A DNA stretch of 21,688 bases, taken from IMG/VR virus record IMGVR_UViG_3300042731_000297, positions 1 through 21,688 of that record; one strand, 5' to 3'. Each line of letters opens with the position of its first letter. Position 1 is the first letter of the stretch. The notes below the pieces were generated by a model. The model did no database searches. It saw only the letters and a list, made by a program, of their open reading frames with translations, and was not told the origin of the DNA. Made by a program: the position numbers and the translations under genes. Origin of the DNA: a virus. Of this stretch, positions 3,001 through 18,444 are shown one piece after another.

Positions 3001-6000
3001 AATCATATGCAAGTAGAGTCTCGGTGAGTTCTCCATCAACGTAAGACACATTGCCGCCAGAGATGTAAGATTCTGCAGCATATACAGTATTGATGTTACC
3101 ACCAACACGAAGGTCTTTCACAACTGCATCAGTGATGAATCCGATATCTCTTTGACACTTGGTGATGGTCAGAGACTGATTAGTCAGCAGTGCTGGATAG
3201 AGAGTAGTAATGTATCCATAAGTTTCTTCTGCCAAATAATCTCTGTTCTTCTCGATGAGATTAGCAGCATCATATGCCTTGTTAAAGTCATCGTTACCAT
3301 CACCATCTAGGTCGAACAATACGTTCAGGTTAGTAGGTGTTAAGGTAGACAGAGATGCTCTATAAGTAGTGATACCAGATGGTTCTAGTGTACCATGGTA
3401 AGTTTGCTTACCACCTACACCACCAGAAGGTAGTTTGACATACAGTCTATCATCTTGCTTGGCACCAATTCTGTATCCATCGATGGATGCAGCAGGACGT
3501 GTTGCTGGATCTACGTTGATGTCACCTGCTAGGTATAGCTTGGTGTCGTTAGCAACATCGTTGGATGCTTCAATGTCAAGGGTGTAGTAAGCATTCTTCT
3601 TGATTGCTTCCTGATTTGTATTAACAACCTTGGGAGGAATGATAGCATCAATGTAACCACCCTTGTCCTGGTTGAATGCAAATCCTTTGAAACCAATAGA
3701 GTGAAGTGAGGTATTACCAAAGTTGGAGTTCGAGTTGGTGATAGACATGTCACCACCACTTTCCATCAGGAAGTGATCGTGGAAACCAACAGCGAAGACC
3801 GAAACGCACTGGATGAAGGAGTCATCAGAAGCACGAATGTGGAAGTTTCTCCACTCATCTTTCCAATATGCATCACCCTTGGTGTGATAAGGAATCGTAG
3901 CGAAAGCATCAGTTAGAGATGCCTGATTCCAAGTGTTAGTGAATCTGTCGTAGCGGATGAATGCACGGTCGTCCTTCTGGAGTGAAACACCCGTGTACTG
4001 TGCAACAACCATCGACTTGAATCCAGTTGCCTTGGATCCATCTGCCCACATACCACACTGACCCCAGGTGGATCTGATGGAACAGTTGAAGACGTATGGA
4101 GATGCAGACTCAACGGAGTCAATCTCTGCCTGAATCACTGCACTGGTGCCGAGACCGTTAGCAGTGGTGTAAGTTGTGCCAGAAACTAGTCCTAGACCAG
4201 CAGCTGTGATAGGAATAATGTATTCAAAGACTTTGGGGTTATTATCATCAATGCTCTCAACCTTGAAGGTTCCGTTAACCTCATCAGATAGACCACTATT
4301 GATAACAGCGATGTACTGACCTTTGAAGTATCCGTGCTCAATCTTGGTGGTAACAGTGAGTCTAGAAGTTGATGTGCCAGGGATATCAACAACTTCGATC
4401 TGCTCAACAGTTCTAGTGTCAGATAGAGGACCAACAATTCTGGTTTCTTGTACCAGTGCTTCTAGTTCACCATCATCGATTGTAGGTTGGAACTGTGCAA
4501 ATGCTCTACCAACTTTCTCATAGTATCTGTCTAGTTCATCATTACCTGCATAGGTCATGATGCAGATCTTGTGGTGAGAATACTCGGGGATCTTTAGATC
4601 TGTAGAGTTCTTCTTATAGTAGACCTTACCTACTTTGTCTGCCTGATCGTATAATGGGGAGTTCTCGGAGAGGTCGCCGTCCTTAATAGTAAACTGCCAC
4701 AGGTAGCAACCACCAGTCAGTTTGAAGATACCAGTTCTCTCTTGATCTCCATCTACAGGATCGGGAACATATAGAGGTCTGATAATGGTGCGACGAAGGT
4801 CATAACCGATCAGAGAACAACCTCTAGGAACAATACAACCGCCTTCGGTAGAGTTGAACTTGTAAAGTACGTTATCAGGGTTGCCCAGGTCAAGGATGCT
4901 ATCATCCTGCCACTCTTGGAGTGCTCTGTTGTAGTCAAAGATAGGAACAACACCTGTAACCTGAACAGATGAAAGAACAGAGAGACTACCAGCGTTGATA
5001 ACATCCGTCAGGATCGTCATCAAAGTCTGAATGTTAGTCTGAACGTCAATACATGCACCAGGGTTACCAGACTCATCATACTCGATGTCTGGAGTGAGGG
5101 CGTTAGCGATTGCAGGACCAGGAGAGATAGTCAGATCCTTGTCATACAGGGAGTTCGTGACCGCCAACTTCATCATATCACGAGCTTTGTTGTAAGCAGT
5201 GATACTTTCTGCCTCTTCACCGACAATAGCGTCTGCTAGAGGATTTCCTTCTCTATCAAAGTATGTCTTTGCAACAGAGATGATGTTGCTATTACCACCA
5301 TTTCTGATGTCAGCAAGAATACCATCAACAATAAATCCGATGTCACGCTTACACTTCTGCTCACCAGGTGTTTCGTGATCAGTAACAGTTTCAGCAGGTA
5401 GTTGAGAGAGGTTACCATCAGTCAGAACGGTCTCAACAATAGCTGCAAGGTTGCCCAGGAAGCTAGCAACATCAGCACATAGAGGAGTACCGTTAGGATC
5501 AGCAGTAATTGTAGAGTCTTTGGTGAATAGTTCATTCTGGAAAGCGGAGATCATCAGATCTCTTGCCTTATTGAAAGCAACAATAGACTCTGACTCCTCA
5601 CCTTCTAGAGAACCAGTAATGAAGGCGTTTCCTGCTTCATTGAAGTATGTTTTCAGATACTTACGAGTGTATCTATTACCACCAGCAAGTGCAATGTCAA
5701 GGGAGAGAGCATCAATGTACTCACCAAGGTCACGCTTACACTCAATTTCGTTATCACTAGCAAAGTTGCCTAGGTTTTCAACAGGAAGTTGAGTTAGGTT
5801 ACCATCAGTAATAACAGTGGTAAGGATCTGCGTTAGAGTAGCGATTGCAGACTGTACGTTAGCACAACCACCACCATCTACAGTGATAGTAGAATCCTGC
5901 ACCAATAGGATATTGTTAACAGCAGACTGCATCAAATCACGCGCTTTGTTGAAAGCAACGATACTTTGTGCTTCTTCTCCTACGAGTCCGTTAGAAATTG

Positions 6001-7255
6001 GGGATCCGTTATCAAAATATGTACCAGCAAGGCGACGAGTGTACTCGTTACCACCACTAATGAGATCGAGCCCAAGATAGTCAACAAATAGACCCAGATC
6101 ACGCTTGCATTTTGCTTCATTTGTCAGATCCGAACCTACTGTTTCTGCAGGCATTCCCGATGCATCGGCAGCAGCAAATGCGTCAGTAACGATCTGAACT
6201 AGAACATTGATTGCAGACTCAACGTTAGCACAGGAATTGGGGTCAACAGTGATAGTAGGATCAGTGATCGTCAACTGATTCTTCATTGCTTGGACCATTA
6301 GGTCCCTAGCAGCATTATATGCATCGATAGTAGCAGCTGCTTCGCTTACGATGTAAGAGAAGACACCACCATCAAAATACTTAAGGGTAAACTTACGGGT
6401 GTACTCGTTACCACCTTTTACAATATCAATACCAACATAATCGACCAGAAGACCGATGTCACGCTTACACTTGTCCTCATCAGCAGGATCCGCAGTGTTA
6501 GATCCCGCCTGCATTGTAGTCCATGCAGTGTCAATGATCTCCTGTCTGTTCTGCTGAATCAGACGATATGCATCCTTAAATCTGTATACAGGATCGTCTG
6601 CAGGATCACCAGGGAAGAAGAAATCAGGGTGCGTTACAGCGATCTCTGCTGCTGCTCTATCAACAATCTCTTGCTTATTCTGCTGGATTAGACGATATCC
6701 ATCTTTAAATCTGTACTCTGGTTCAGATGTACCGTCACCACCAGGATAGAAGAAATCAGGAAACTCTACTGCAATATGTGCAGCAGCTTTGTCTACAATT
6801 TCCTTACGGTTCAACTGTACTAGACGATATGCATCAGCATATCTCGATCCAGCATCAGTTTGGTTATCACCAGGATGGAAGAAATCTGGGTGTTGTACAA
6901 AAATTTCTGCTGCAGCACGATCTACAATCGTCTGCTTATTTGCCTCGATGAGGTTACCAGCATCAAAGAATCTAGACTCTGGATTAGCTGTATCTACAAG
7001 ACCAGGGCGGTTATCAATAAAGTGATTACCAGGCATCAGCATAATGCTGAACTGGTCAAATCTATCATTATCCTTACCAGGTAGATAAGAATAACGTGCT
7101 ACTTCAAGGAAAGCACGCTGGATGGTTTTAAATGGACGGAGAGGTGAATTGCCTCGGTTGTCTAACTCGTCTGTCGCATTAAAATCATCTGGTGATACGT
7201 ATAGATACTTACCTGTTTTACTTGAGTAAAGGTTATCAAGTCTTGTAAGAGGCAT
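1..7255 (-). CDS. Giant virion structural protein, modular and repeat-rich (partial, 3' end outside window)
   Basis: One reading frame is open on the minus strand from ATG at 7255 to the left edge. I read every codon and found no stop, giving at least 2418 residues. The N-terminus (about residues 36-57) has a PFKTIQRAF-type stretch like the first coil of right-handed beta-helix proteins. A 43-residue tandem repeat follows (about 93-235), then four modules starting C(K)RD(I/L)G...GGN (about 262-755) and a fifth, divergent one near 1366. The rest is beta-rich and Gly/Asn/Asp-rich, with a DLDGDGNDD calcium-loop-like motif just before the fifth module. The visible C-terminal part resembles large structural proteins of T4-like cyanophages from memory. 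By position after gp5 it may replace a T4 baseplate wedge or fibre protein (gp7/gp10-like role). That role is inference. A TATAAATA late promoter lies 36 nt upstream; the ribosome-binding site is weak (AGGATTGGG). Confidence 0.88.
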   Translation of the reverse strand, partial: MPLTRLDNLYSSKTGKYLYVSPDDFNATDELDNRGNSPLRPFKTIQRAFLEVARYSYLPGKDNDRFDQFSIMLMPGNHFIDNRPGLVDTANPESRFFDAGNLIEANKQTIVDRAAAEIFVQHPDFFHPGDNQTDAGSRYADAYRLVQLNRKEIVDKAAAHIAVEFPDFFYPGGDGTSEPEYRFKDGYRLIQQNKQEIVDRAAAEIAVTHPDFFFPGDPADDPVYRFKDAYRLIQQNRQEIIDTAWTTMQAGSNTADPADEDKCKRDIGLLVDYVGIDIVKGGNEYTRKFTLKYFDGGVFSYIVSEAAATIDAYNAARDLMVQAMKNQLTITDPTITVDPNSCANVESAINVLVQIVTDAFAAADASGMPAETVGSDLTNEAKCKRDLGLFVDYLGLDLISGGNEYTRRLAGTYFDNGSPISNGLVGEEAQSIVAFNKARDLMQSAVNNILLVQDSTITVDGGGCANVQSAIATLTQILTTVITDGNLTQLPVENLGNFASDNEIECKRDLGEYIDALSLDIALAGGNRYTRKYLKTYFNEAGNAFITGSLEGEESESIVAFNKARDLMISAFQNELFTKDSTITADPNGTPLCADVASFLGNLAAIVETVLTDGNLSQLPAETVTDHETPGEQKCKRDIGFIVDGILADIRNGGNSNIISVAKTYFDREGNPLADAIVGEEAESITAYNKARDMMKLAVTNSLYDKDLTISPGPAIANALTPDIEYDESGNPGACIDVQTNIQTLMTILTDVINAGSLSVLSSVQVTGVVPIFDYNRALQEWQDDSILDLGNPDNVLYKFNSTEGGCIVPRGCSLIGYDLRRTIIRPLYVPDPVDGDQERTGIFKLTGGCYLWQFTIKDGDLSENSPLYDQADKVGKVYYKKNSTDLKIPEYSHHKICIMTYAGNDELDRYYEKVGRAFAQFQPTIDDGELEALVQETRIVGPLSDTRTVEQIEVVDIPGTSTSRLTVTTKIEHGYFKGQYIAVINSGLSDEVNGTFKVESIDDNNPKVFEYIIPITAAGLGLVSGTTYTTANGLGTSAVIQAEIDSVESASPYVFNCSIRSTWGQCGMWADGSKATGFKSMVVAQYTGVSLQKDDRAFIRYDRFTNTWNQASLTDAFATIPYHTKGDAYWKDEWRNFHIRASDDSFIQCVSVFAVGFHDHFLMESGGDMSITNSNSNFGNTSLHSIGFKGFAFNQDKGGYIDAIIPPKVVNTNQEAIKKNAYYTLDIEASNDVANDTKLYLAGDINVDPATRPAASIDGYRIGAKQDDRLYVKLPSGGVGGKQTYHGTLEPSGITTYRASLSTLTPTNLNVLFDLDGDGNDDFNKAYDAANLIEKNRDYLAEETYGYITTLYPALLTNQSLTITKCQRDIGFITDAVVKDLRVGGNINTVYAAESYISGGNVSYVDGELTETLLAYDYLKRLIFGVIRNGTLLIKNCTTSTSSTNVIVGDTSGLVPGMQVNEYAQNDFTNGLLNEGAVPLGTNLLGGSPLIIGQIVNATTIELVDPNTGLVYQPQQDSTTAWLYFENSNIYSGSPRIIDLSITQDDTYPECTNIASAIEGYFDVVNLVLNGNANQVTRVEPIIESSSLIGRATVFTIDTGLGQTDPHGFQTGTPVRLVPRATNAGVDKRLVRLPRGFETNRPYYVIAPGRDTYPNSFNNTSEFDNSAGTKLMLAATKENAAAGIYIYSSETESMSPDVELLIQQQVLDESYDLHRYVCNVSGIYIETDIPHVFDVPVPNVPAQTIFFATSGDASSQLPTISGAGDVATDVYYYPRFITKTKFSVHTTQADAQAGTNAVIFTSGSGSDFIVYGNKKTSPLKYDPVDFQRWYLNVKPESAGGLDPNAILTRFHQSDFVDGTGNLFTPDTWYERIQDDRTALDRIYRLRYVLPQYLQTVREPLNGYVIKTRTDDRRRLKPQKFYLEPFSNGAPDVAQFFNPARAGEQLGLSLADLDAANVDVSGGFYDPYENPLQIEFESKIATTIQSARTIEVDPQGTGTLVDRLELTVFDHTIINQQLKNEIFTVIEIGTPQGAGIQTSIYNSDDSNYVSWTGYCSGSAYIHGYYQADATAFVILKNITGKIDYSVNSQTNFVQNNGTFFALAGYPDAYPTQISRSDRKNYLYRIEGANVYTVVPGDKITTPGGDTYTVTTLEDVPEIDDTFYIFDVETIQEQIPLQQDGIYYLTCVRGNISPYPLGAGVGTNFHYYRFSQPISNLYPLDYKNDPLWFQINVDTGSRDATVLDPPASAAAADNYVHGLVTLNDYKFSETKEAITDLTRTLPFAGFEYTNTTSDLNSAILDNRLQAQEGNASVGSENRQIPISGDSVYPLDRRFYTELRRPSIARSGNHTFEYLGFGPGNYSTGFPLRQEVVLSDKQDFYAQAKREDAGIVFYTGLNSNGDLYIGNRKINAITGEETFL
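4990..6480 (-). repeat. Four tandem CKRD(I/L)G modules of about 120-129 residues
   Basis: The module-start cysteine codons lie at 6469, 6109, 5740 and 5353, so the spacings are 120, 123 and 129 residues. Each module reads CKRD(I/L)G.(I/L/Y)(V/I)D....DI..GGN, then a YF(D/N) motif, EEA.SI.A(F/Y)NKARD(L/M)M, D.TI..., and a C.(N/D)V.(S/T) segment. The Cys, the GGN and the ARDLM cores are kept in all four. A fifth copy (CQRDIG) lies at 3157, preceded by a LIEKNRDYLAEE helix that matches the 43-residue repeat core. This suggests that the two repeat types originally formed one unit. Confidence 0.8.
6460..6976 (-). repeat. 43-residue (129-nt) tandem protein repeat, four units
   Basis: Units begin at 6976, 6847, 6718 and 6589, exactly 129 nt apart each time. 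The consensus is (S/E/V)-R/Y-R(F/Y)xDAYRLIQxN(R/K)xEIVDxAAAxI, then a PDFFxPGD stretch and an acidic linker. Units 2 and 3 are very alike. Unit 4 loses the PDFF part and runs into the first CKRD module after 40 residues. This is seen directly by translation. The amphipathic LIQxNRxEIVDxA segment suggests a short helix; the function is unknown. Confidence 0.85.
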
Positions 7256-7291
7256 AATTAACCCAATCCTGCTGGACAATTTCTTCTGGAT

Positions 7292-7299
7292 TATTTATA
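7292..7299 (-). promoter_or_regulatory. T4-type late promoter (TATAAATA)
   Basis: The minus strand reads TTGTATAAATAATCC. The octamer is identical to the T4 late-promoter consensus recognised by the gp55/gp33-directed host polymerase. It lies 36 nt upstream of the giant structural gene and just downstream of a terminator hairpin, so it marks a new late transcription unit. Confidence 0.75.
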
Positions 7300-7303
7300 C
7301 AAT

Positions 7304-7329
7304 AAAACCTCCCCTTGTAGGGAGGTTTT
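7304..7329 (-). terminator. Symmetric 10-bp terminator hairpin
   Basis: A perfect inverted repeat with a 6-nt loop: AAAACCTCCC (7304-7313) pairs with GGGAGGTTTT (7320-7329). On the minus strand the stem ends in TTTTATT, fitting an intrinsic terminator for the tRNA/metabolic block. The A/T flanks are symmetric, so it could work in both directions, but no plus-strand gene is present. Confidence 0.75.
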
Positions 7330-7368
7330 ACAGCACACGGAAGGGGTTTGGTTTGGCAGTATCGCCAA

Positions 7369-7442
7369 CTCCTCCACCTGGACTCGAACCAGGAACCTAT
7401 TGATTAACAGTCAACCGCTCTGCCTAATTGAGCTATAGAGGA
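7369..7442 (-). tRNA. tRNA-Asn(GTT)
   Basis: The minus strand folds as a cloverleaf. The acceptor TCCTCTA pairs with TGGAGGA, there is a D-arm AGCTCAATTAGGCAGAGC, the anticodon loop is CTGTTAA (anticodon GTT), and the T-arm is CCTGG-TTCGAGT-CCAGG. The discriminator is G, as usual for Asn. The 3' CCA is not encoded. Confidence 0.93.
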
Positions 7443-7451
7443 AAGGGAATA

Positions 7452-7473
7452 TCCCCTGCTCGTCAGCAGGGGA
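7452..7473 (-). other. Strong 9-bp hairpin in the tRNA-Ala/tRNA-Asn spacer
   Basis: The spacer 7443-7568 holds a perfect 9-bp stem with a GACG loop on the minus strand (stem CCCCTGCT/AGCAGGGG plus one A-T pair). A weaker outer stem, GGGAA/TTCCC (7487-7491 with 7445-7449), encloses it. No U-run follows, so it does not look like a terminator. It may protect or process the tRNA precursor. I see no third tRNA and no credible CDS in this spacer. Confidence 0.5.
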
Positions 7474-7568
7474 GGCATCAAGAGGGTTCCCACCTCTCTC
7501 CCACGCGGGTTGGATTCCGATTCTTTTTTCTCTCGGAGACGTGAGCACGGATGTATTCCAGTCCGTTA

Positions 7569-7641
7569 TGGAGAATAGGAGACTCGAACTCCTGACATCC
7601 TGCTTGCAAAGCAGGCGCTCTACCAGCTGAGCTAATTCCCC
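7569..7641 (-). tRNA. tRNA-Ala(TGC)
   Basis: The acceptor GGGGAAT pairs with ATTCTCC (one G-U), with discriminator A. The D-arm is AGCTCAGCTGGTAGAGC, the anticodon arm is CCTGC-TTTGCAA-GCAGG (anticodon TGC), and the T-arm is AGGAG-TTCGAGT-CTCCT. Its first 10 nt are also the last codons and the TAG stop of the upstream oxygenase gene. Confidence 0.95.
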
Positions 7642-8222
7642 GCAGGTACAAGTGGTTCATGATAGTTGAACCAACCTGTGATAATGTACTTATGCTCATT
7701 TGGAGCAACTTCGCCCCTATGAGTATAGGTCCAATCGCCTGGCCAGATCAAGGTTTTACCCTTTCTTGCCTGAACTGTGTATTTCTGATGATAAAACTCG
7801 GTTCCACCACCATCTTCCACATGATTAAGATAAGTCATCCAAACTAGATGCCTATTATTATATGGTAGTGATGCATTACAACGTTCTGTATGCCAGTTGT
7901 AAAAACCTTCGCCTGGTTTATACCACTGGATATTAAATCCCTCGTTTAATCCCCAGGGACCGTATTCGTTACAATAAGGAAACTCGCGAACATACTGGTC
8001 AGCACAGTCTCTCAACTGTTCTATGTAATTTGCTATAACAGGAAATTGTTCCCATTCCGAGTTAAACAGGGTAAGATCAGTAGATTTCTTACCCTTGTCA
8101 GGACCACCATATGTAATACCAGGACAACGATGTATTTTAGCAAACCTAGAGTTGTGAAAGAAATCAATGATTTCATCACAAATAGAGATGTCTCTAATAT
8201 AAGTTTCTAAAGTAAAATCCAT
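7632..8222 (-). CDS. 2-oxoglutarate/Fe(II)-dependent oxygenase (prolyl-4-hydroxylase-like)
   Basis: A 196-aa protein with a double-stranded beta-helix oxygenase signature. The Fe(II) ligands would be H111 and E113 (WHTE, an H-x-E variant of the usual H-x-D) and the distal H168 (TYTHRG). K178 in HKYIITGWF sits where the 2-oxoglutarate-binding Arg/Lys is expected. W160-PGDW and the GGGTEFYHQ strand also fit the family. Such oxygenases are common in T4-like cyanophages, but the substrate is unknown; a protein, nucleotide or cell-surface target is possible. The start ATG lies 11 nt after the tRNA-Leu(TAG) 3' end, with the Shine-Dalgarno AGGA in that gap. The stop TAG lies inside tRNA-Ala (its nt 8-10). 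Confidence 0.85.
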   Translation of the reverse strand: MDFTLETYIRDISICDEIIDFFHNSRFAKIHRCPGITYGGPDKGKKSTDLTLFNSEWEQFPVIANYIEQLRDCADQYVREFPYCNEYGPWGLNEGFNIQWYKPGEGFYNWHTERCNASLPYNNRHLVWMTYLNHVEDGGGTEFYHQKYTVQARKGKTLIWPGDWTYTHRGEVAPNEHKYIITGWFNYHEPLVPAGN

Positions 8223-8233
8223 GTTATCCTGAA

Positions 8234-8315
8234 TGTCGGTGAGAGGACTTGAACCTCCACGTCATAAGACACTAGAACCTAAACCTAGCGCGTCTACCGA
8301 TTCCGCCACACCGAC
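8234..8315 (-). tRNA. tRNA-Leu(TAG)
   Basis: An 82-nt class II tRNA. The acceptor GTCGGTG pairs with CACCGAC, with discriminator A. The D-arm region is TGGCGGAATCGGTAGACGC, the anticodon loop carries TAG, there is a long variable arm, and the T-arm is GGAGG-TTCAAGT-CCTCT. It reads CUN leucine codons. Confidence 0.93.
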
Positions 8316-8316
8316 G

Positions 8317-8362
8317 AAAAAAGGGGGCACTGCTTCTATACGCAGATCTTTTGTACTCCCCC
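8317..8362 (-). terminator. Possible terminator between tRNA-Thr and tRNA-Leu(TAG)
   Basis: On the minus strand GGGGG (8362-8358) can pair with CCCCC (8327-8323), and six T residues (8322-8317) follow. An inner CTGC/GCAG stem sits in the 30-nt loop. The U-run fits an intrinsic terminator, but the long loop makes it weak. It could be partial, or it could serve as a tRNA-processing spacer. Confidence 0.35.
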
Positions 8363-8366
8363 AAAG

Positions 8367-8440
8367 AGCCACATGTCGGACTTGAACCGACGACCTACGG
8401 TTTACAAAACCGTTGCTCTATCCAGCTGAGCTAAAGTGGC
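8367..8440 (-). tRNA. tRNA-Thr(TGT)
   Basis: The acceptor GCCACTT pairs with ATGTGGC with one T-T mismatch. The D-arm is AGCTCAGCTGGATAGAGC, the anticodon arm is ACGGT-TTTGTAA-ACCGT (anticodon TGT), and the T-arm is GTCGG-TTCAAGT-CCGAC. Its first 10 nt overlap the end of the cpeT-like gene. Confidence 0.92.
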
Positions 8441-8973
8441 ATCTTGGTAAATTCAAACTCTCCGAAGCGACCGCCCCAGACTTGTTCGGTGGTTCCTACA
8501 AGGAATCCACGATCAACTACATTATAATAGTCTACGCCAAGAGTTGCCTCGTTTCTGACATAGGTCATTTGATCTGCCTTGTAGGGAACCAAACACTCAC
8601 AACCGTCGATAGAACCGTTAAATTCGTTTTTATCTGGGTCGTAAGTCATAATTGTATCACACTTTGTCTTGTGTGTCAACCCCTTGTCGTACTTGATTTG
8701 CTCTAGATTTAGAGCACCCAAATAACGCCATTTTTCAAAGTCATAGTTAAGGACCCTAATCTGCCCATTAGGGTCTTCAACTGCTTCTACAATAAACTGC
8801 CTATATGGCGCATGTAGTTTGTAATTGTACGCTTGCTCACCATAAAACATGGTGTCCGTGCCAGGGACTTTATGATGAGTTAGGCGCACCATAGCGAACC
8901 TAGAGGGGTTGGAAAATGCCTGAACTTTGTTCTCCCACGTTCCCTCAAACCATTCTATAAATTTATCAATCAT
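8431..8973 (-). CDS. cpeT: CpeT-like phycobiliprotein chromophore lyase
   Basis: A 180-aa protein of the CpeT/CpcT family (Pfam CpeT). In cyanobacteria this family attaches bilins to phycobiliprotein cysteines. Family marks are the N-terminal helix with WENKVQAFSNPSRF (13-26), APYRQF (55-60), the middle FNGSIDGCECLVP segment (118-130), and the C-terminal DRGFLVGTTEQVWGGRFGEF core (154-173). cpeT homologues are well-known cyanophage auxiliary genes, which ties the host to marine Synechococcus or Prochlorococcus. The frame is open further upstream, to 9129, but the start at 8973 is chosen because it overlaps the previous stop (ATGATTGA) and begins the conserved region. The TAG stop lies inside tRNA-Thr. 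Confidence 0.85.
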   Translation of the reverse strand: MIDKFIEWFEGTWENKVQAFSNPSRFAMVRLTHHKVPGTDTMFYGEQAYNYKLHAPYRQFIVEAVEDPNGQIRVLNYDFEKWRYLGALNLEQIKYDKGLTHKTKCDTIMTYDPDKNEFNGSIDGCECLVPYKADQMTYVRNEATLGVDYYNVVDRGFLVGTTEQVWGGRFGEFEFTKMPL

Positions 8974-9232
8974 CTTTAGGTAATAGTTCTGGATTGTCAA
9001 CAGTGAGTTCAAACATACATGGATGACATTCCTCCGCCATGAGATATGAAGACCATTTGTACAGTTCTTCATCATCCCAGTCTCGTCCTTCCAACGCTTC
9101 TGTTTGAATCGCTGGATGATCTTGGACAATCAGCGGAAGTTCGTCAAAGGTATATGGTATACCTTGAATGAAATACATCCGCACTACCATGCCCATGTAA
9201 AAAGCATACGACTGTGTTAGTGTGTATTCCAT
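8966..9232 (-). CDS. Small protein of unknown function (88 aa)
   Basis: I do not recognise this gene. It is an acidic 88-aa protein with an aromatic N-terminal half (YAFYMGMVVRMYFIQ, probably amphipathic rather than a true membrane span) and an acidic C-terminus ending KDD. It has C77 and C80 separated by HP? only loosely, as ECHPC, which is a possible metal or redox pair. It overlaps cpeT by 8 nt, so the two are likely translated together. An ACTAAATA motif lies 18 nt before its ATG. Confidence 0.7.
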   Translation of the reverse strand: MEYTLTQSYAFYMGMVVRMYFIQGIPYTFDELPLIVQDHPAIQTEALEGRDWDDEELYKWSSYLMAEECHPCMFELTVDNPELLPKDD

Positions 9233-9250
9233 AACATTTCCACTACATTT

Positions 9251-9258
9251 TATTTAGT
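9251..9258 (-). promoter_or_regulatory. Late-promoter-like octamer ACTAAATA
   Basis: The octamer matches 6 of 8 positions of TATAAATA and sits between tRNA-Leu(TAA) and the 88-aa gene, 18 nt before that ATG. The same octamer has nearly the same spacing before the genes starting at 14534 and 18417. Confidence 0.45.
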
Positions 9259-9265
9259 AGCGGAA

Positions 9266-9350
9266 TAGGGCAAGCGAGACTTGAACTCGCACGACTGTAA
9301 TAGTCAACAGATTTTAAGTCTGGTGTGTCTACCGATTCCACCACTGCCCC
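9266..9350 (-). tRNA. tRNA-Leu(TAA)
   Basis: An 85-nt class II tRNA. The acceptor GGGGCAG pairs with TTGCCCT (two G-U pairs), with discriminator A. The D-arm region is TGGTGGAATCGGTAGACAC, the anticodon loop is CTTAAAA (anticodon TAA), there is a long variable arm, and the T-arm is GCGAG-TTCAAGT-CTCGC. A sigma70-type promoter lies directly upstream. Confidence 0.93.
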
Positions 9351-9363
9351 TTGGGACCTCTGT

Positions 9364-9392
9364 ATTATATCACAGAAACATCCCTTTGTCAC
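9364..9392 (-). promoter_or_regulatory. Sigma70-type promoter, extended -10, for tRNA-Leu(TAA)
   Basis: The minus strand has GTGACA (9392-9387), a 17-nt spacer and TATAAT (9369-9364), preceded by TG at the extended -10 position. The TGA stop of the glutaredoxin gene supplies that TG. Transcription would start near 9357, about 7 nt before the tRNA 5' end. The -35 matches 5 of 6 and the -10 matches 6 of 6. Confidence 0.7.
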
Positions 9393-9615
9393 TCATATAA
9401 CGAAGTGCTTCCTTCATTCCACCAATATGCTTGTCGCCAATGGCAATTTGTGGAAAAGTAGCATCTTCGCCAAATTCTTGCTGAAATGCATTCTGGGTAA
9501 AGTGCTTATCTAGACGATATTCAAGATATTCGTCGATATTCTTCAAATCTTGGAGCAACATGCCCATGCGCTCACACTCTTGACTGCCGTTACTGTAGAT
9601 TACTGCTGTGGTCAT
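9370..9615 (-). CDS. Glutaredoxin-like protein (single-cysteine variant)
   Basis: An 81-aa thioredoxin-fold protein. It has a beta1 strand AVIYSN (4-9), an active-site loop with only C14 (C-E-R-M instead of C-x-x-C), the cis-proline motif TFPQIAIG (53-60) and the glutathione-binding HIGG motif (63-66). Family members use glutathione to reduce disulfides, for example to supply ribonucleotide reductase, and cyanophages often carry one. The loss of the second cysteine implies a monothiol mechanism (deglutathionylation) or loss of dithiol reductase activity. It overlaps the preceding small gene by 26 nt, and its stop forms part of the next promoter. Confidence 0.8.
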   Translation of the reverse strand: MTTAVIYSNGSQECERMGMLLQDLKNIDEYLEYRLDKHFTQNAFQQEFGEDATFPQIAIGDKHIGGMKEALRYMSDKGMFL

Positions 9616-9727
9616 ATTCGATGACGATTTTTTTGTGTTGAGTTTTTTTGTCGCAACAAACGATATATTGTACTTCAGCGTCTAATAACTCGCCAACCTT
9701 CTCTAGGAGATTTTTGGCGATATTCAT
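9590..9727 (-). CDS. Small protein of unknown function (45 aa)
   Basis: I do not recognise the family. The frame is open from 9799, but ATG at 9727 is preferred: it lies one base after the TAA stop of the upstream gene (TAATATG), and the sequence looks structured from there. The protein has an amphipathic helix NIAKNLLEKVGELLDAE followed by beta-like VQYIVCC and KIVIEYDH strands, with adjacent cysteines 28-29. It overlaps the glutaredoxin start by 26 nt. Confidence 0.6.
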   Translation of the reverse strand: MNIAKNLLEKVGELLDAEVQYIVCCDKKTQHKKIVIEYDHSSNLQ

Positions 9728-9728
9728 A

Positions 9729-10043
9729 TTAGTCACGCTGACGCCAGTCGTCTGGTTTGTCTCTTCCGAACCATTCGTTGATGTCATCTGCACCGTCAAA
9801 TCCAGTTTTGTAGTTATTTGGGTCAGGATCGCCCAAACCCATTTTGTTCATAAAATCGTCCATGCTACCCTCTTGGATATCTTGAGCAGCTTGTCTTCGT
9901 GCCTTGTTTAACCAATCTCGGGCAGTAGTGTGTCTCTTGGCGAGTTTTTCTGCCCAGATCATGTCGTCAAGTTTGACTTCTTCCTTATTTGCAATTTTCT
10001 TGCAGATGAACTCCAAACGGAGTCTGTACTGGGTAGACAGCAT
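9729..10043 (-). CDS. Conserved-looking cyanophage hypothetical protein (104 aa)
   Basis: A 104-aa, mostly helical, charged protein. The N-terminal half (RLEFICKKIANKEEV, WAEKLAKRHTTARDWLNKARRQA) is likely helical. The C-terminal half is acidic (GLGDPDPNNYKTGFDGADD) and ends INEWFGRDKPDDWRQRD. From memory the tail and the MIWAEKLAK stretch resemble a small protein of many T4-like cyanophages; its function is unknown. It starts 3 nt after the previous stop and is co-transcribed with it. Confidence 0.75.
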   Translation of the reverse strand: MLSTQYRLRLEFICKKIANKEEVKLDDMIWAEKLAKRHTTARDWLNKARRQAAQDIQEGSMDDFMNKMGLGDPDPNNYKTGFDGADDINEWFGRDKPDDWRQRD

Positions 10044-10046
10044 AAA

Positions 10047-10241
10047 TCACTCGCGCAGTTTTAGCTCTAGATCTTCGAGTTTGTGATACTCTGCATGTGC
10101 CGCTTCTTGGCGGTCACATACAATATTTAGAATGTCACCCACAATGATGTCATTCTCAACATAGTCATCAAGGTATTTGTCGATTGCTTCCTTCAAATAC
10201 CGATATCTATGCCACTCTGGTGAATATGGTTTGTAGTGCAT
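10047..10241 (-). CDS. Conserved-looking cyanophage hypothetical protein (64 aa)
   Basis: A 64-aa, mostly helical protein with many aromatic residues at the start (HYKPYSPEWHRYRYL) and an acidic middle. Its function is unknown. It is the first gene after a perfect sigma70 promoter, and its ATG is only about 15 nt from the predicted transcription start with no clear Shine-Dalgarno site, so translation may be nearly leaderless. Confidence 0.72.
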   Translation of the reverse strand: MHYKPYSPEWHRYRYLKEAIDKYLDDYVENDIIVGDILNIVCDRQEAAHAEYHKLEDLELKLRE

Positions 10242-10263
10242 GATAAAGCGATTTCATACAACG

Positions 10264-10292
10264 ATTATAGGGCAATGTCGCCGTTTTGTCAA
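10264..10292 (-). promoter_or_regulatory. Perfect sigma70 promoter TTGACA-17-TATAAT
   Basis: The -35 TTGACA (10292-10287) and the -10 TATAAT (10269-10264) both match the consensus fully and are separated by 17 nt. It lies between the needle gene and the small-gene block. It should be read by unmodified host RNA polymerase, as for early phage genes, and gives the tRNA/metabolic block its own early start. Confidence 0.8.
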
Positions 10293-10359
10293 CTCGACCT
10301 TCAGGACGAAAAATTGGTGGCGAATTTTTTTCGGAATTCTGGTAACCGAAAGTCGAATT

Positions 10360-11475
10360 TCAGTTGAGGAAGATCGACAGACCTTTGATGGTTAGTGTAC
10401 CAGCTGGGTTCATGATGTCAAGTGTACCTACCTTGTTAGTAACAATACTGTTGCCTTTCATAGCAGTGATAGCAAACGCAGCGCCAGATTTCATGAGGAA
10501 TCCCATCTTATTGACACCTAGAGTCAAGGAATAGGTCTGTGTAGGTGGTTTCTTGTCAGTAATTGATTTGAGACCAAAGATTTTCTCTTCCTTTGGACCA
10601 TAAATTTTTTCAACTACCTTCCCTAAAGTTTTAAGTTGATAGCTACCAGTTATTGAAGTCAAGTTAATGTTCTTCAGTGACCTCACATTATAGCGTCCAC
10701 CCTGAACATCAACCTCATAACTTCCTTGGATCTTATGAGTAACGTCACCAGAGGTGTTAATAACATGAGTAGCGCCAGGTTTAATCTGCTGGTCAACTAC
10801 AACCTCACCAGTTCCTTTGGTGATCTTACGACCATCAATGTTCTCATTCAAAAATTCTGCATCAAATGTGATGTCGCCCGCAAATACATTAAACTTGCCG
10901 CTACCATCACCAACCTCAATGTTAACAACTTCTCCTGCTTTGAGTGTTAGAGTCTTAATAGCATGGATAAGTACGTTGTCTCCCTTAATACCACAGTTAT
11001 CTCCTGACGCTTCAATTGCGACAGCTCCCTCCGCCATAACGGAGTAAGCAGGATCCTCTTTAGTTGCGCTTCCAGTTCCTGTTCTTGTAGATCCAACTCG
11101 CTCCGAATCTTTTGGACCCGTTGCTTGAATAGCAATAGTTCCAGATGCTTTCTGAATTTGATCACCTGTATTCATGATCAGTTTGCCACCACAACCTGCT
11201 TGTCCTGGCACGCCAGTAGAGAACGTCATGTTGCCGTTCTCATCAAAGAACATGGCACTTTGACCATTGGTGACAGTGTAACCACCTGGTTGTCCGTCGT
11301 CACCCCTCCAACTCATACACGTCCAACCATCAGACACCCAGTGTACTGTTGGTTTACCATTACAAAATGCATCGTCAGATACGTTTGCTTTTCTACCACC
11401 AGCTGGTTCTGCCGCAGGTTGCCCCGAAGCAGAACTCTGATGTTGATTATCGACGTTTGGTTTAATATCAGACAT
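10360..11475 (-). CDS. Beta-helical cell-puncturing needle (gp5 C-terminal-domain-like)
   Basis: A 371-aa protein from ATG at 11475; an ATG three codons upstream would give 374 aa. The preferred start shares its A with the upstream stop (TAATG), so translation is coupled to the gp5-like gene. After a Gly/Ser/Ala linker and a W/C-rich strand region (VHWVSDGWTCMSWRGDD), the protein is a long series of short beta strands with turn repeats (SGTIAIQATG, GAVAIEASGD, NVLIHAIKTLTLKAGE, GSYEVDVQGGRYNVRS). This pattern is typical of the trimeric gp5C/VgrG-type needle. In T4 this needle is the C-terminal part of gp5; here it is a separate gene. It would form the tip that pierces the outer membrane. Confidence 0.75.
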   Translation of the reverse strand: MSDIKPNVDNQHQSSASGQPAAEPAGGRKANVSDDAFCNGKPTVHWVSDGWTCMSWRGDDGQPGGYTVTNGQSAMFFDENGNMTFSTGVPGQAGCGGKLIMNTGDQIQKASGTIAIQATGPKDSERVGSTRTGTGSATKEDPAYSVMAEGAVAIEASGDNCGIKGDNVLIHAIKTLTLKAGEVVNIEVGDGSGKFNVFAGDITFDAEFLNENIDGRKITKGTGEVVVDQQIKPGATHVINTSGDVTHKIQGSYEVDVQGGRYNVRSLKNINLTSITGSYQLKTLGKVVEKIYGPKEEKIFGLKSITDKKPPTQTYSLTLGVNKMGFLMKSGAAFAITAMKGNSIVTNKVGTLDIMNPAGTLTIKGLSIFLN

Positions 11476-14400
11476 TATGGGCAATCAATATAACGACCAG
11501 TTCCAATCTTAACGAGTCCTCTGCTGTTGAGATCCTCGGAGGAGAGACAAATCATGTTTGGTAGAACAATAGCACCAGATCCTCCACCACCAATCAGTTT
11601 AACGACTGGTTTCTTATCATTGTATGTCTTTGTTCTGTCCTTGATCTGGACACTCGTAACATATCCTCTTTCATCAATGATAGCAGTTGCCAAATTTGGA
11701 TCTCCATTTATGTATACTTCGGGAGCAGACGTATATCTGATACCAGGAGAGATAAGAGTAAAGGAATCGATGATGCATTGTACATCATTATCTTCTGCTA
11801 GGTTACGTTTGTATCCTAGTCCACCTCTAGTAACTCTAATCTCCGACACAAATCCGTTGGTGTCAAGAAGAGCGATAGCAGTAGCACCATATCCTTCTCC
11901 AGAGATGATAACTTGAGGTGCTTCAGAGTATGACTCACCAGTATCACTGATAGGGATGCTAACAATAGATCCATCGGAACCAGTGATAGGATCACCTGCC
12001 TTTGGTTTGTTAGGAACGTATTCAGGTACAGTATCTTTCTCATCATCATCGTTGACGCCATCACCATCTAGATCCTCAAACCCACCACTAGAGAAGATGG
12101 TTGCTTGGGCTCTTGCACTTGTTCCCATGATTCTGAAGTCCACAAGTTCAGCAGGTTCTATTCTTTCGTCCTCCAAGATACCAACGACAACTCTTGCTTG
12201 GTTGTCTTTGATCTTGAATTTACCAGAGATTGTACCACCAACAAAATCATTGGCGTCAACATCACCCAGAATAATCCAATCAAACTCTGTGTTGTCATCA
12301 ACATTCTCACTTGTGATAGAGAAAATGATGTCCTCACCCTCTATGTAAGCAGGTTTGTCAGTGGTAACAGAGATGCTAGATTCACCTCCCAATTCAGGAT
12401 CAAGTATCGAATCAGGGAACAGAGATTCTTCATAGTCTGCTGCAATATCTGTGTCAGCAAAAGAACCTGTATCGAAGTTTGCGTCAGCAAGTTCAGTATT
12501 TCCTGGATCAAACAGAGTGAATCTAAACGTTTGGATTCTACCCAACTCAATCTCTTCCTGCATGGTAAGAGTAACCGTGCCTCTACAACGTGGGATAGAG
12601 ATTGTTTGTAGATCTCCTTCCTCGTCAAGGAATTCTTCTGTTAGAGTTTCATATTCAGATACCGTAACAGTTCCTGTGAGAGATGGATTAGCATCATCAA
12701 TGTACTCTTCTACTATATCACCAGTCAACTCATAAGTCAAGACCGCGCCGTGTGCTACGTTAGAAGTGTTGATGGTGAATGTTACAGTATCACCACCAGC
12801 AACGATGGTTGGATCACCAATGACAGAGTAAACCTTGCTGCCATCAAAGGTGACAGGCAGTGAGATGTCATCGTCATCATCGTCATCATCTGGACCACCA
12901 AAGATATCATCTGGGATGTCATCATCATCTGGGAATCCATCGTCGTCATCGTCATCAGGATCGTCAGGTGGAATCACATCACGATCAAACTCTGGTGTGT
13001 CGGGTCTACCAGGACCAGGTGGTTCTGGTGGACCAGGTGGTTCTGGGATTGGTTCTGCTGGGATACCACCAACAAAAATAACTCTAGTTCCTTTAGGATC
13101 TAGGTAGTCTTGACTCTCTTCACAGTAGAATCTCTCACCAGTATCACCCGCTTCGATATCATCGAGCAGTTTGTCTAACCAATCATCCTCATCTTCGTCC
13201 TTGGAACAGTCAGTACACTTAACAGTTTCCTTTGGACAGTTACTATCAGGACCACTACAAGAGATGCCTAGGAATGACATGACCTTCGAGATAGCACCGC
13301 CGATCATGTTCAACGGTGCCGCTATAATTGATAGTATACTTTGCAAAGGTCCAAGTATACTGTTTATCAAACCATCAATAAGTTCTAGGATCTTATTGAT
13401 GATACCTTCTACCAAGTTAATGACTGCACATGCTGCTGGAGCGAAGACATCCATGATAAAATTGAACAGCAAGTTCGTTAGGAACGCTGCAATTCTGTCG
13501 GTGATATTCTCGATGGAACAACCAAGTGCTTTTAGGATCTGCTCAAGTACCTTCTGAATTCCATCGAGCAAGCGACCTTTCTTGCCAACAGATTTTTCAG
13601 TTTGTTGTGTATCCTTGGGTACTTTCTCTTTCTGTTGTTTGAATACCTCAATACCTAACAGACCGTTGATTAGATTTTGAATACCCTCACGGAGATTCCT
13701 AATGATTTCAGACTGGGTGCGACCTAGCAAACTACGGACAAGTCTAGTGACTCTACCGATATGATGTCTAGCAATCGCTACCTTATCATACAAGAAACCA
13801 TTAACCTTACTGACATAGAAGTTACCTAACTGACCACCAGATGCTTGGTTAGCAGCGAGCATCTCACCAATGATGTTCTGCATCTGCTTACCGAAGTTAC
13901 TCTCCGTACCACACTTGGGGTTGGCAATAGTAACACAGTTCTGTGATCCAATAGGATTAGTCTCGCTATGCTTTCCACGTAGAGCAGCGATGATAGCAGG
14001 AGCACCCTTCTCCTCATTAGAACGAGCAGCAGCTGGTTCACCACCATCTATGTTAGCACCAGTCTCTGGGTCGGTTCCGTTGGTGCTATCTTGAGACCTA
14101 TCCATCTGTGGGAGAACATCAGCAGCACGTTGCCTCTGCAGTCCTCGGGGACCATCGCCACCACCTTGACTGTCCTGATTGACAACAACAGTAGATGCTT
14201 TGGTGTGACCAATAGATCCCATGATGACAGGCTTCTGCCTATCATTGTCAAGGAAGAAACCAATGACCCAGTTGCCTGCACGAAGTTCTGCAGTAGCACT
14301 TGACTTACCATCACTGAATGGTGTAGTCACAGGCATGACTACGTTTGCCCAAGGCAGTTGATCTGTTGGTGTCTGCTGTCCCTCCTTCAGGTGTACACCA

Positions 14401-14534
14401 ACGATACGCACACGATATCTACCAGATTTCTTGGGGTCACTCTCTCTCCCCGTCTCAACCTGTCCAATCCACCAGTTGAAACCATCAGAACCTATTGAGT
14501 TTGTCTGTAATAATGAAGATAATACTGGATCCAT
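11475..14534 (-). CDS. gp5-like baseplate hub OB-fold protein without lysozyme domain
   Basis: A 1019-aa protein. Residues 1 to about 110 form a gp5-type OB fold (NWWIGQVE, GRYRVRIVGVH, LPWANVVMPV, AGNWVIGFFLDN, PVIMGSIGHT) that in T4 sits on the gp27 ring. No T4-lysozyme-like domain follows. Instead there is a linker, then a very hydrophobic helical stretch (about 285-420), a cysteine cluster (CSGPDSNC...CTDC, about 423-445), a Pro/Asp-rich linker with runs of six to eight Asp (about 490-560), Ig/Calx-beta-like domains (about 570-815), a DLDGDGVNDDDE calcium loop (about 820) and repeated G..Y..AP.V.I strands to the end. It follows the gp27-like gene after 17 nt and is coupled to the needle gene. 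I infer a spike platform that displays the separate needle. Confidence 0.78.
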   Translation of the reverse strand: MDPVLSSLLQTNSIGSDGFNWWIGQVETGRESDPKKSGRYRVRIVGVHLKEGQQTPTDQLPWANVVMPVTTPFSDGKSSATAELRAGNWVIGFFLDNDRQKPVIMGSIGHTKASTVVVNQDSQGGGDGPRGLQRQRAADVLPQMDRSQDSTNGTDPETGANIDGGEPAAARSNEEKGAPAIIAALRGKHSETNPIGSQNCVTIANPKCGTESNFGKQMQNIIGEMLAANQASGGQLGNFYVSKVNGFLYDKVAIARHHIGRVTRLVRSLLGRTQSEIIRNLREGIQNLINGLLGIEVFKQQKEKVPKDTQQTEKSVGKKGRLLDGIQKVLEQILKALGCSIENITDRIAAFLTNLLFNFIMDVFAPAACAVINLVEGIINKILELIDGLINSILGPLQSILSIIAAPLNMIGGAISKVMSFLGISCSGPDSNCPKETVKCTDCSKDEDEDDWLDKLLDDIEAGDTGERFYCEESQDYLDPKGTRVIFVGGIPAEPIPEPPGPPEPPGPGRPDTPEFDRDVIPPDDPDDDDDDGFPDDDDIPDDIFGGPDDDDDDDDISLPVTFDGSKVYSVIGDPTIVAGGDTVTFTINTSNVAHGAVLTYELTGDIVEEYIDDANPSLTGTVTVSEYETLTEEFLDEEGDLQTISIPRCRGTVTLTMQEEIELGRIQTFRFTLFDPGNTELADANFDTGSFADTDIAADYEESLFPDSILDPELGGESSISVTTDKPAYIEGEDIIFSITSENVDDNTEFDWIILGDVDANDFVGGTISGKFKIKDNQARVVVGILEDERIEPAELVDFRIMGTSARAQATIFSSGGFEDLDGDGVNDDDEKDTVPEYVPNKPKAGDPITGSDGSIVSIPISDTGESYSEAPQVIISGEGYGATAIALLDTNGFVSEIRVTRGGLGYKRNLAEDNDVQCIIDSFTLISPGIRYTSAPEVYINGDPNLATAIIDERGYVTSVQIKDRTKTYNDKKPVVKLIGGGGSGAIVLPNMICLSSEDLNSRGLVKIGTGRYIDCP

Positions 14535-14551
14535 ACCAATAAGGTTTATTT

Positions 14552-15931
14552 TTATTTAGTTGTCGTATTGGACTCTTCGTTAGGTCTACCGTAAGAGTCT
14601 CTAACTAGAGTCAAGTATGTGTTTGCTCTTCTTGCTTTTGTTTCACATGCGTGATTAAGTTTGGCGACCAAGTAAACACCACTGTGCTCTGGATCATATA
14701 GATCTGGTTGTCTATCTTGTGTTGGAATCTGGTTAGGTATTCTTATCTCAACAGTAGAACCAACCCTCAAGTCAAGTCTAACAGGAACTGTGATCAATAC
14801 CTGCTGATTGTTCTGCGACTCAAGTCTAGCGATGCTCTGTGCAATATAATTCTTTTGCCAGTCAGGAAACTCGGCAGTGTTTTGTTTACCTCCGTCTGGT
14901 TTCTCTGGTGATGCTACCTCGACACCATCAAACCAGGTCTCATGGTCAATCAACACCGACATGATTCTACTTGGAGTAGCTGCTAGATCTGCCTGTCCTT
15001 TAGCAAGACCCGACTGCGATCCAAGATGCTCCATGTCATCGAAAGAATCTTGTAGTTTATAGTTGTACTCTTCGTATGCACCTGTGCTGTAGTTGTAGAA
15101 ACAGATAACATTAGAGAACGTACCCATCCTCAACTTGGTAAGGATGTCAATCTCTTGCTGGAAGTCAATACTTAAAATCTTTTGCTGCTTTGATGCACCA
15201 GCGACAGCATCAGTCTCTTGCGTGAATATTTCTACTGGAGGATTCTTATCGGTAGAATTCAATCTATCAATAGAATTGAAGTAGTATCCGTCTACGTTCT
15301 GGTAGAAATAATATCCTGCACTACCAGTTGACTTTGCAAACTCACCTGTGACACTGTTGCTTGAGTTGTTTACCTTACTGTCTTCAGCGACGGTCTTCAT
15401 TCTCATAGACTCAATGATAGAGAAGGGAGTCTTCTTACCAGGAAAGAATCTAACCTTAAACATTGCAGGATCTGTTTTAATCCTGTCACCAGCAACACCA
15501 AGTTCTTCTGTCAATAATTTTCTGACGATACCATCTCCCTTTCCAGTAAGTATAGTACCAACTCTCTTGGATTCATTGAGCAATGCCTCTGCAGAGATCA
15601 ACCCAAGAGAATACTTCTGGAATCTATCACCAGAGAATCTACTGTGGATTCTAAAGACCTTGAAGTTATATACCTGCTTCAGTTTTCCATCATCGTCACC
15701 AATTTGTACCATAGTAATCTTGATATCTTCATACCCCTGAATAGGTAGAGATGAGATCAAGTTAGCACCTGTGTCAACCAACTCCAAGTTTGCCTCGAAT
15801 GTTGGGAGACTAATGTTCTCGAAGTAATCAAACCTGACGACTAGATCGGTAATGTTTTGCTTGTCACCATCAACTGAAGTAATGATACATTCTTCTAGTT
15901 GTAAGTCAGCAGCGTATGATAACTCGGACAT
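14552..15931 (-). CDS. gp27-like baseplate hub protein
   Basis: A 459-aa protein. The N-terminal part (DLVVRFDYFENISLPTFEA...YEDIKITM) and a later barrel segment fit the gp27/phage late-control D hub fold. The C-terminus has a second barrel (VRLDLRVGSTVEIRIPN...GVYLVAKLNH...YLTLVRDSYG) as in hub proteins of contractile tails. The trimeric hub joins the tail tube to the gp5 spike, and the gene directly precedes the gp5-like gene as expected for partners. T4 gp27 is shorter (about 390 aa). The start ATG shares a base with the upstream stop (TAATG). The assignment rests on pattern and position. Confidence 0.72.
   Translation of the reverse strand: MSELSYAADLQLEECIITSVDGDKQNITDLVVRFDYFENISLPTFEANLELVDTGANLISSLPIQGYEDIKITMVQIGDDDGKLKQVYNFKVFRIHSRFSGDRFQKYSLGLISAEALLNESKRVGTILTGKGDGIVRKLLTEELGVAGDRIKTDPAMFKVRFFPGKKTPFSIIESMRMKTVAEDSKVNNSSNSVTGEFAKSTGSAGYYFYQNVDGYYFNSIDRLNSTDKNPPVEIFTQETDAVAGASKQQKILSIDFQQEIDILTKLRMGTFSNVICFYNYSTGAYEEYNYKLQDSFDDMEHLGSQSGLAKGQADLAATPSRIMSVLIDHETWFDGVEVASPEKPDGGKQNTAEFPDWQKNYIAQSIARLESQNNQQVLITVPVRLDLRVGSTVEIRIPNQIPTQDRQPDLYDPEHSGVYLVAKLNHACETKARRANTYLTLVRDSYGRPNEESNTTTK
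14553..14560 (-). promoter_or_regulatory. Late-promoter-like octamer ACTAAATA before the gp5-like gene
   Basis: The octamer overlaps the last codons and stop of the gp27-like gene (ACT AAA TAA) and ends 18 nt before the gp5-like ATG. The spacing matches the copies at 9251 and 18437. It could allow extra late transcription of gp5 and the needle. Confidence 0.45.
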
Positions 15932-18417: not shown

Positions 18418-18436
18418 TAGTTACGATCCCCCTTGA

Positions 18437-18444
18437 TATTTAGT
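18437..18444 (-). promoter_or_regulatory. Late-promoter-like octamer ACTAAATA before the 828-aa gene
   Basis: The octamer includes the TAA stop of the tape-measure gene and ends 19 nt before the ATG at 18417, a nearly identical spacing to the two other copies. Confidence 0.45.

Follow-up and report, generated by a model that had tools for sequence, protein, structure and literature searches.

The locus

The window, i.e. the whole stretch of 21,688 nucleotides analysed here (positions 1 to 21,688 of the IMG/VR virus record IMGVR_UViG_3300042731_000297), has its nearest annotated relatives among Synechococcus cyanomyoviruses such as S-CAM1 and S-CAM3. On its minus strand, an island of small accessory genes and tRNAs lies within the late baseplate cluster, between a needle-like hub gene and a giant tail-fibre gene (Table 1). 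A host-type promoter element sits in the 118-nt gap separating the needle-like gene from the first island gene, whose start at 10241 is likely correct because the phrog_1461 match begins at the first residue. No intrinsic terminator was found between the hub genes and the island, the 118-nt gap included.

Table 1. Features of the accessory/tRNA island and its borders, in order of transcription
Feature	Coordinates	Strand	Remarks
Needle-like baseplate hub/tail lysozyme gene	10360..11475	(-)	phrog_4540 match; directly upstream
Sigma70/SigA-type promoter	10264..10292	(-)	-35 TTGACA 10292-10287, 17-nt spacer, -10 TATAAT 10269-10264
Predicted transcription start	10257	(-)	7th base past the -10; derived from hexamer geometry
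Predicted 16-nt leader	10242..10257	(-)	no Shine-Dalgarno-like stretch
First island gene, 64 aa, Syn9 gp135 relative	10047..10241	(-)	phrog_1461
Syn9 gp136 relative	9729..10043	(-)	phrog_507
Small ORF	9590..9727	(-)	phrog_618; 9590-9724 searched, start read from sequence
Glutaredoxin/thioredoxin-domain gene	9370..9615	(-)	phrog_22
Second sigma70-type promoter, GTGACA-17-TATAAT	9364..9392	(-)	13 nt before tRNA-Leu(UAA)
tRNA-Leu (taa)	9266..9350	(-)	
Late-like element CTAAATA	9251..9257	(-)	before the phrog_4134 gene
phrog_4134 gene	8966..9232	(-)	function unknown
cpeT-like antenna protein gene	8431..8973	(-)	phrog_488; 8431-9060 searched, start read from sequence
tRNA-Thr (tgt)	8366..8440	(-)	
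tRNA-Leu (tag)	8234..8315	(-)	
2OG-Fe(II) oxygenase gene	7632..8222	(-)	phrog_61
tRNA-Ala (tgc)	7569..7641	(-)	
tRNA-Asn (gtt)	7368..7443	(-)	
Terminator hairpin ending the island	7304..7329	(-)	folding; also in S-CAM1 and S-CAM3
T4-type late promoter TATAAATA	7292..7299	(-)	for the giant tail-fibre gene (ATG at 7255)

At the other end of the island, a 56-nt stretch folds at -24.1 kcal/mol (z -5.7), a value that none of 200 shuffles equalled. A late TAAATA element precedes the tail-fibre gene in the window and in 13 of the 13 named phages compared; in Syn9, where the neighbouring gene is a different one, no late TAAATA stands at the tail-fibre position. Within the island, the second promoter (9392-9364) scores 11/12, and so does its counterpart in all nine other loci of the window's lineage in which the tRNA start was found, these counterparts coming in two divergent sequence versions. 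The CTAAATA element, which stands ahead of cpeT as well as of the phrog_4134 gene, also occurs in S-CAM1, at 75768. The promoter at 10292-10264 is not the only signal of the island, as the tRNA-Leu promoter, CTAAATA and read-through from the hub genes may also serve it.

As a pair, gp135 and gp136 form a small unit that moves between places. Located after the needle gene here, it follows gp23 in Syn9 and in loci L076 and L085, and elsewhere lies downstream of uvsW-gp55; L087 (5971-6640) and L017-L018 are among the loci with the unit. Depending on the place, the unit carries a late-type or a host-type promoter.

A conserved host-type promoter at the needle-gene junction

The element TTGACAAAACGGCGACATTGCCCTATAAT (minus strand, plus coordinates 10292-10264) reads TTGACA-17-TATAAT. 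The full consensus match of the original prediction is thus borne out at 12 of 12 positions with a 17-nt spacer, and TTGACA-N15-19-TATAAT has this single exact instance across the window, against 0.03 expected per window in dinucleotide shuffles. The kind of promoter is already known, namely the host-like cyanophage promoter. Between the needle stop and 10241 there is no [TCA]TAAATA, the pattern sought for a T4-type late promoter, and by eye no MotA-like box accompanies the full TTGACA at -35.

The window's lineage shares the same 118-nt gap in 11 loci, which give nine distinct sequences. Among these nine, all 12 hexamer positions are invariant versus 6 of the 17 spacer positions and 70 of the 106 gap positions outside the hexamers; by a hand calculation, such invariance would have p ~0.01 if the hexamers behaved like the remaining gap. 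The pattern indicates that the hexamers are under constraint. Wherever gp135 or gp136 directly follows the needle gene, the -35 is TTGACA without mismatch and is separated by 17 nt from a TANNAT, in 9/9 named phages and in 13/13 IMG/VR loci, five of the latter being copies of rows already counted. The junction carries a site of at least 10/12 in 12 of 13 named phages, and the gap of ACG-2014h scores 9/12; in S-CAM1 the site occupies 76807-76779.

An unbiased set of junctions was obtained by searching IMG/VR with a needle-protein alignment and scoring the 200 nt past the stop. From 68 loci, three weak hits (L231-L233) and two with too little sequence (L170, L199) were removed, and the near-copies among the remainder were collapsed to 39 distinct junctions. 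A site of at least 10/12 is present in 32 of these 39, of at least 11/12 in 17, and a perfect one in 10; at the 10/12 threshold, Markov shuffles give 3.5%, antisense strands 4/39 and coding windows 0/39. Since the host-type site is lacking in 7/39 distinct junctions, it is not essential, and according to the needle tree it was lost in the clade sister to the window (L171, L179 and L181; support 97/99 for the seven-row set).

That weaker promoter-like sites are no commoner in the window than in shuffles (36 sites of at least 9/12 against 39.9 expected, window 1-20000) is what a functionless chance match would also predict; yet the conservation of the hexamers relative to the spacer and the recurrence of the site at most junctions reduce the likelihood of mere coincidence to almost nothing. 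On the strength of motif and conservation, it is almost certain that the element functions as a host-type promoter. Along the same line, the idea that such a promoter marks a late-cluster boundary and reads into the block of small genes, glutaredoxin, tRNAs and cpeT is supported, its hexamers being conserved in relatives.

What follows the junction is less constant. Where a DUF680 gene stands between the needle gene and gp135, only 3 of 12 IMG/VR loci reach 10/12, and in three other DUF680 loci (L050, L073 and L077) a promoter fused to a terminator lies right before gp135. In Syn9, a perfect host-type promoter at 18628-18656 (L105 3628-3656) follows gp5 directly, and its distance to the next ATG is 22 nt as in the window, but its first gene, gp21, is unrelated.

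The variety of the first gene past the promoter (gp135, gp136, DUF680, Syn9 gp21) might suggest a boundary element kept mainly for recombination, its promoter activity being secondary. Indeed, the surroundings "near gp5 with tRNAs" count among the four hot spots that a 2010 comparison reported for genes specific to Synechococcus phages (PMC3037559), where gene gain is described. Moreover, promoter-terminator composites, the PeSLs, are known in T4-like phages and described as mediating shuffling there (PMC4503421, as given in citing text). The PeSL cassettes of T4-like myoviruses, as far as their definition in that citing text goes, resemble the window in placing a host-like promoter where modules meet; however, the 118-nt gap has no terminator stem-loop, the island hairpin being 3 kb off at the other end, and across lineages conservation covers the two hexamers and the 17-nt distance between them but no longer block. 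A mainly recombinational role is therefore very improbable, and the reading as a working promoter is retained.

Predicted start point and leader

Counting from the hexamers, transcription would start 16 nt before the ATG at 10241. The short leader without a clear ribosome site, put at about 15 nt in the original prediction, is thus confirmed, but it is no peculiarity: short leaders are ordinary in these phages, about one third of such promoters being alike. Among 113 strong sites in seven genomes, 39 have the next start codon 18-30 nt beyond the -10 (10% at random positions), as do 18 of 45 sites in four further genomes (control 10%). Where relatives have a longer leader, gp135 likewise has no ribosome-binding stretch by eye. 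The predicted +1 coincides with the first base of an ATG, from which an out-of-frame ORF of 16 codons begins, and in 9/9 distinct lineage sequences an ATG falls exactly at this +1; the conservation of this ORF is not independent, because its 3' part overlaps the start of gp135.

A possible operator in the spacer, prompted by GGC..GCC in the window and a perfect repeat in Syn9, was discarded: over 104 of the 113 sites, those without TTTTT in the spacer, inverted repeats had a mean arm of 2.82 versus 2.76 in shuffles.

The promoter class and the timing of the island

When 14 named phage genomes were scanned for TTGACA-17-TATAAT, allowing up to one mismatch, each had one strand with 10-20 sites and an opposite strand with 0-3; reversed-pattern controls gave 0-4 sites per strand. 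As read from the annotation, none of the sense sites stands directly before an annotated virion gene, neither in S-CAM1 (16/16) nor in Syn9 (16/16). Those of S-CAM1 precede gp32, gp55, gp61 primase, mazG, the gp43 operon, psbA, ferredoxin and tRNA-Leu, and those of Syn9 precede gp43, gp61, mazG, hli and psbA; the others are located before genes of unknown function or within genes. Some sites of this class lie inside coding sequence, where the protein may keep their bases. For this reason a near-perfect site within cpeT (8679-8651) was dropped as evidence.

Because sites of the same class precede replication and metabolic genes in both phages and directly precede no annotated virion gene, it is well supported, by analogy, that the island would be transcribed before the late structural genes. 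The expectation that the promoter switches the block on early thus holds in so far as expression ahead of the late genes is meant, whereas strictly early expression is not supported, as promoters of this class stand before replication and metabolic genes. In Syn9, as Doron reportedly described in 2016, middle genes are driven by host-like promoters and early genes by a separate novel element. Metabolic genes belong exclusively to the middle cluster in P-HM2 (PMC5082946), and nucleic-acid metabolism genes are among the middle genes of cyanomyoviruses (PMC7238727). By analogy with these genes, middle expression is the likelier reading of the timing.

Immediate-early expression, in which unmodified host polymerase would use the promoter at DNA entry and the island would be made with the host-takeover genes, is possible but rather unlikely. 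It would agree with an older view (PMC2984593) whereby sigma70 motifs alone serve early genes and middle control works via overlapping early and late promoters, the added late promoter being precisely what the window's lineage lacks. The same source describes cyanomyoviruses as devoid of alt, modA, modB, motA and asiA. Several sites of the class also occur in the small-gene region of S-CAM1. Against it stand the replication and metabolic genes preceded by the same class in S-CAM1 and Syn9, the exclusively middle metabolic genes of P-HM2 and the distinct early element reportedly used in Syn9.

The most coherent account is that a functional SigA/sigma70 promoter borders an accessory island within the late baseplate cluster, and this is probably correct. 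Host RNA polymerase would start near 10257, ahead of gp55-dependent late transcription, and the island would therefore be made at the time of the replication and photosynthesis genes, which most likely means middle expression. Transcription would end at the hairpin 7329-7304, after which TATAAATA (7299-7292) would start the late tail-fibre gene.

Turnover of promoter class

In the other main lineage (S-PM2, Syn1, S-RIM32, S-RIM44, S-H9-2, Sf-CH11 and Sf-CH3), the first gene is preceded by a sigma70 site at a distance of ~60 nt and by a late-type CTAAATA at 16-21 nt; the alignment shows that the window's lineage is without this late-element segment. Promoter states were mapped on a needle tree of 50 rows, namely the 39 distinct junctions, the window and 10 of the 13 named phages, with S-CAM3, S-PM2 and S-RIM32 represented by what were judged to be their IMG/VR copies (L198, L227 and L203). 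Under rough labels, 23 rows have both promoters, 20 the host-type only, 5 the late only (L181 by a loose pattern, its first start codon not being preceded by a late element) and 2 neither, and with these labels the tree requires at least nine changes of state.

Close relatives of the window (L171, L179, L181, L196 and L197) have junctions without the host-type promoter, some with a late element only; as their motifs indicate, these are natural cases of promoter-class switching. Upstream of psbA, the -10 is fused with the late element, reading TATAATAAATA or, in Syn9, TATGATAAATA, at S-CAM1 104396, S-CAM3 188699, S-PM2d 125670, Sf-CH11 185425 and Syn9 165814. The merged element is an overlap of host-type and late promoters, which fits PMC5931967.

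A further arrangement was found in terminators. Seven genomes hold 12 sense-strand terminator hairpins with TTGAC, and in 11 of the 12 a -10 follows at the exact 17-nt spacer, compared with 31 of 177 other sense terminators having a -10 at that offset and 0 of 8 antisense TTGAC hairpins (Fisher 2e-7). With the rule fixed beforehand, four further genomes gave 7/7 versus 21/93, and 0/5 antisense (7e-5). As some of them are orthologous, the TTGAC hairpins are not all independent. In such a fused terminator-promoter, the U-tract forms the spacer, and the -35 hexamer falls within the loop or next to it. Examples are Sf-CH11 172213, S-RIM32 170577, S-CAM1 105091 and S-PM2d 114765, as well as L050 near 4440-4478, for which the folding was computed. 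No description of this overlap between terminator and -35 was found in the literature searched, which does not by itself make it new.

It may be, tentatively and with the odds somewhat against it, that the post-needle junction is a fixed regulatory gateway, where the promoter stays, the cargo changes and the promoter class turns over; sister phages would therefore express one and the same accessory/tRNA operon at different times. Together with the terminators that carry a -35 in their loop, this would amount to a boundary grammar giving inserts pre-late expression.

Known systems and significance

The host-like promoters of T4-like cyanophages (S-PM2, Syn9, and S-PM2d psbA) have the same hexamers, 17-nt spacing, strand bias and short leaders, and the class is also found before gp43, gp61, psbA and hli; unlike these, the promoter of the window lies within the late baseplate cluster and would gate a tRNA/accessory island. 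Overlapping or paired early and late promoters (RB49, S-PM2; psbA) are another point of comparison: relatives at the junction carry sigma70 plus CTAAATA ~40 nt downstream, whereas at this gene the sigma70 part alone is present in the window's lineage. The T4 middle promoter consists of a MotA box and a -10; its timing is possibly that of the window's promoter, which differs in having a full -35 and, by eye, no MotA box.

To sum up, a conserved and testable control point takes the place of a vague "promoter-like" sighting. The same operon stands in cultured phages under host-type plus late promoters (S-PM2, Syn1) or under the host-type alone (S-CAM1, S-CAM3), and the post-gp5 promoter of Syn9 offers a testable site in a phage with a published time course. 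Comparing the two cultured sets would decide between two ideas of how middle transcription is controlled in cyanomyoviruses, and also whether tRNA/accessory islands precede the virion genes in expression.
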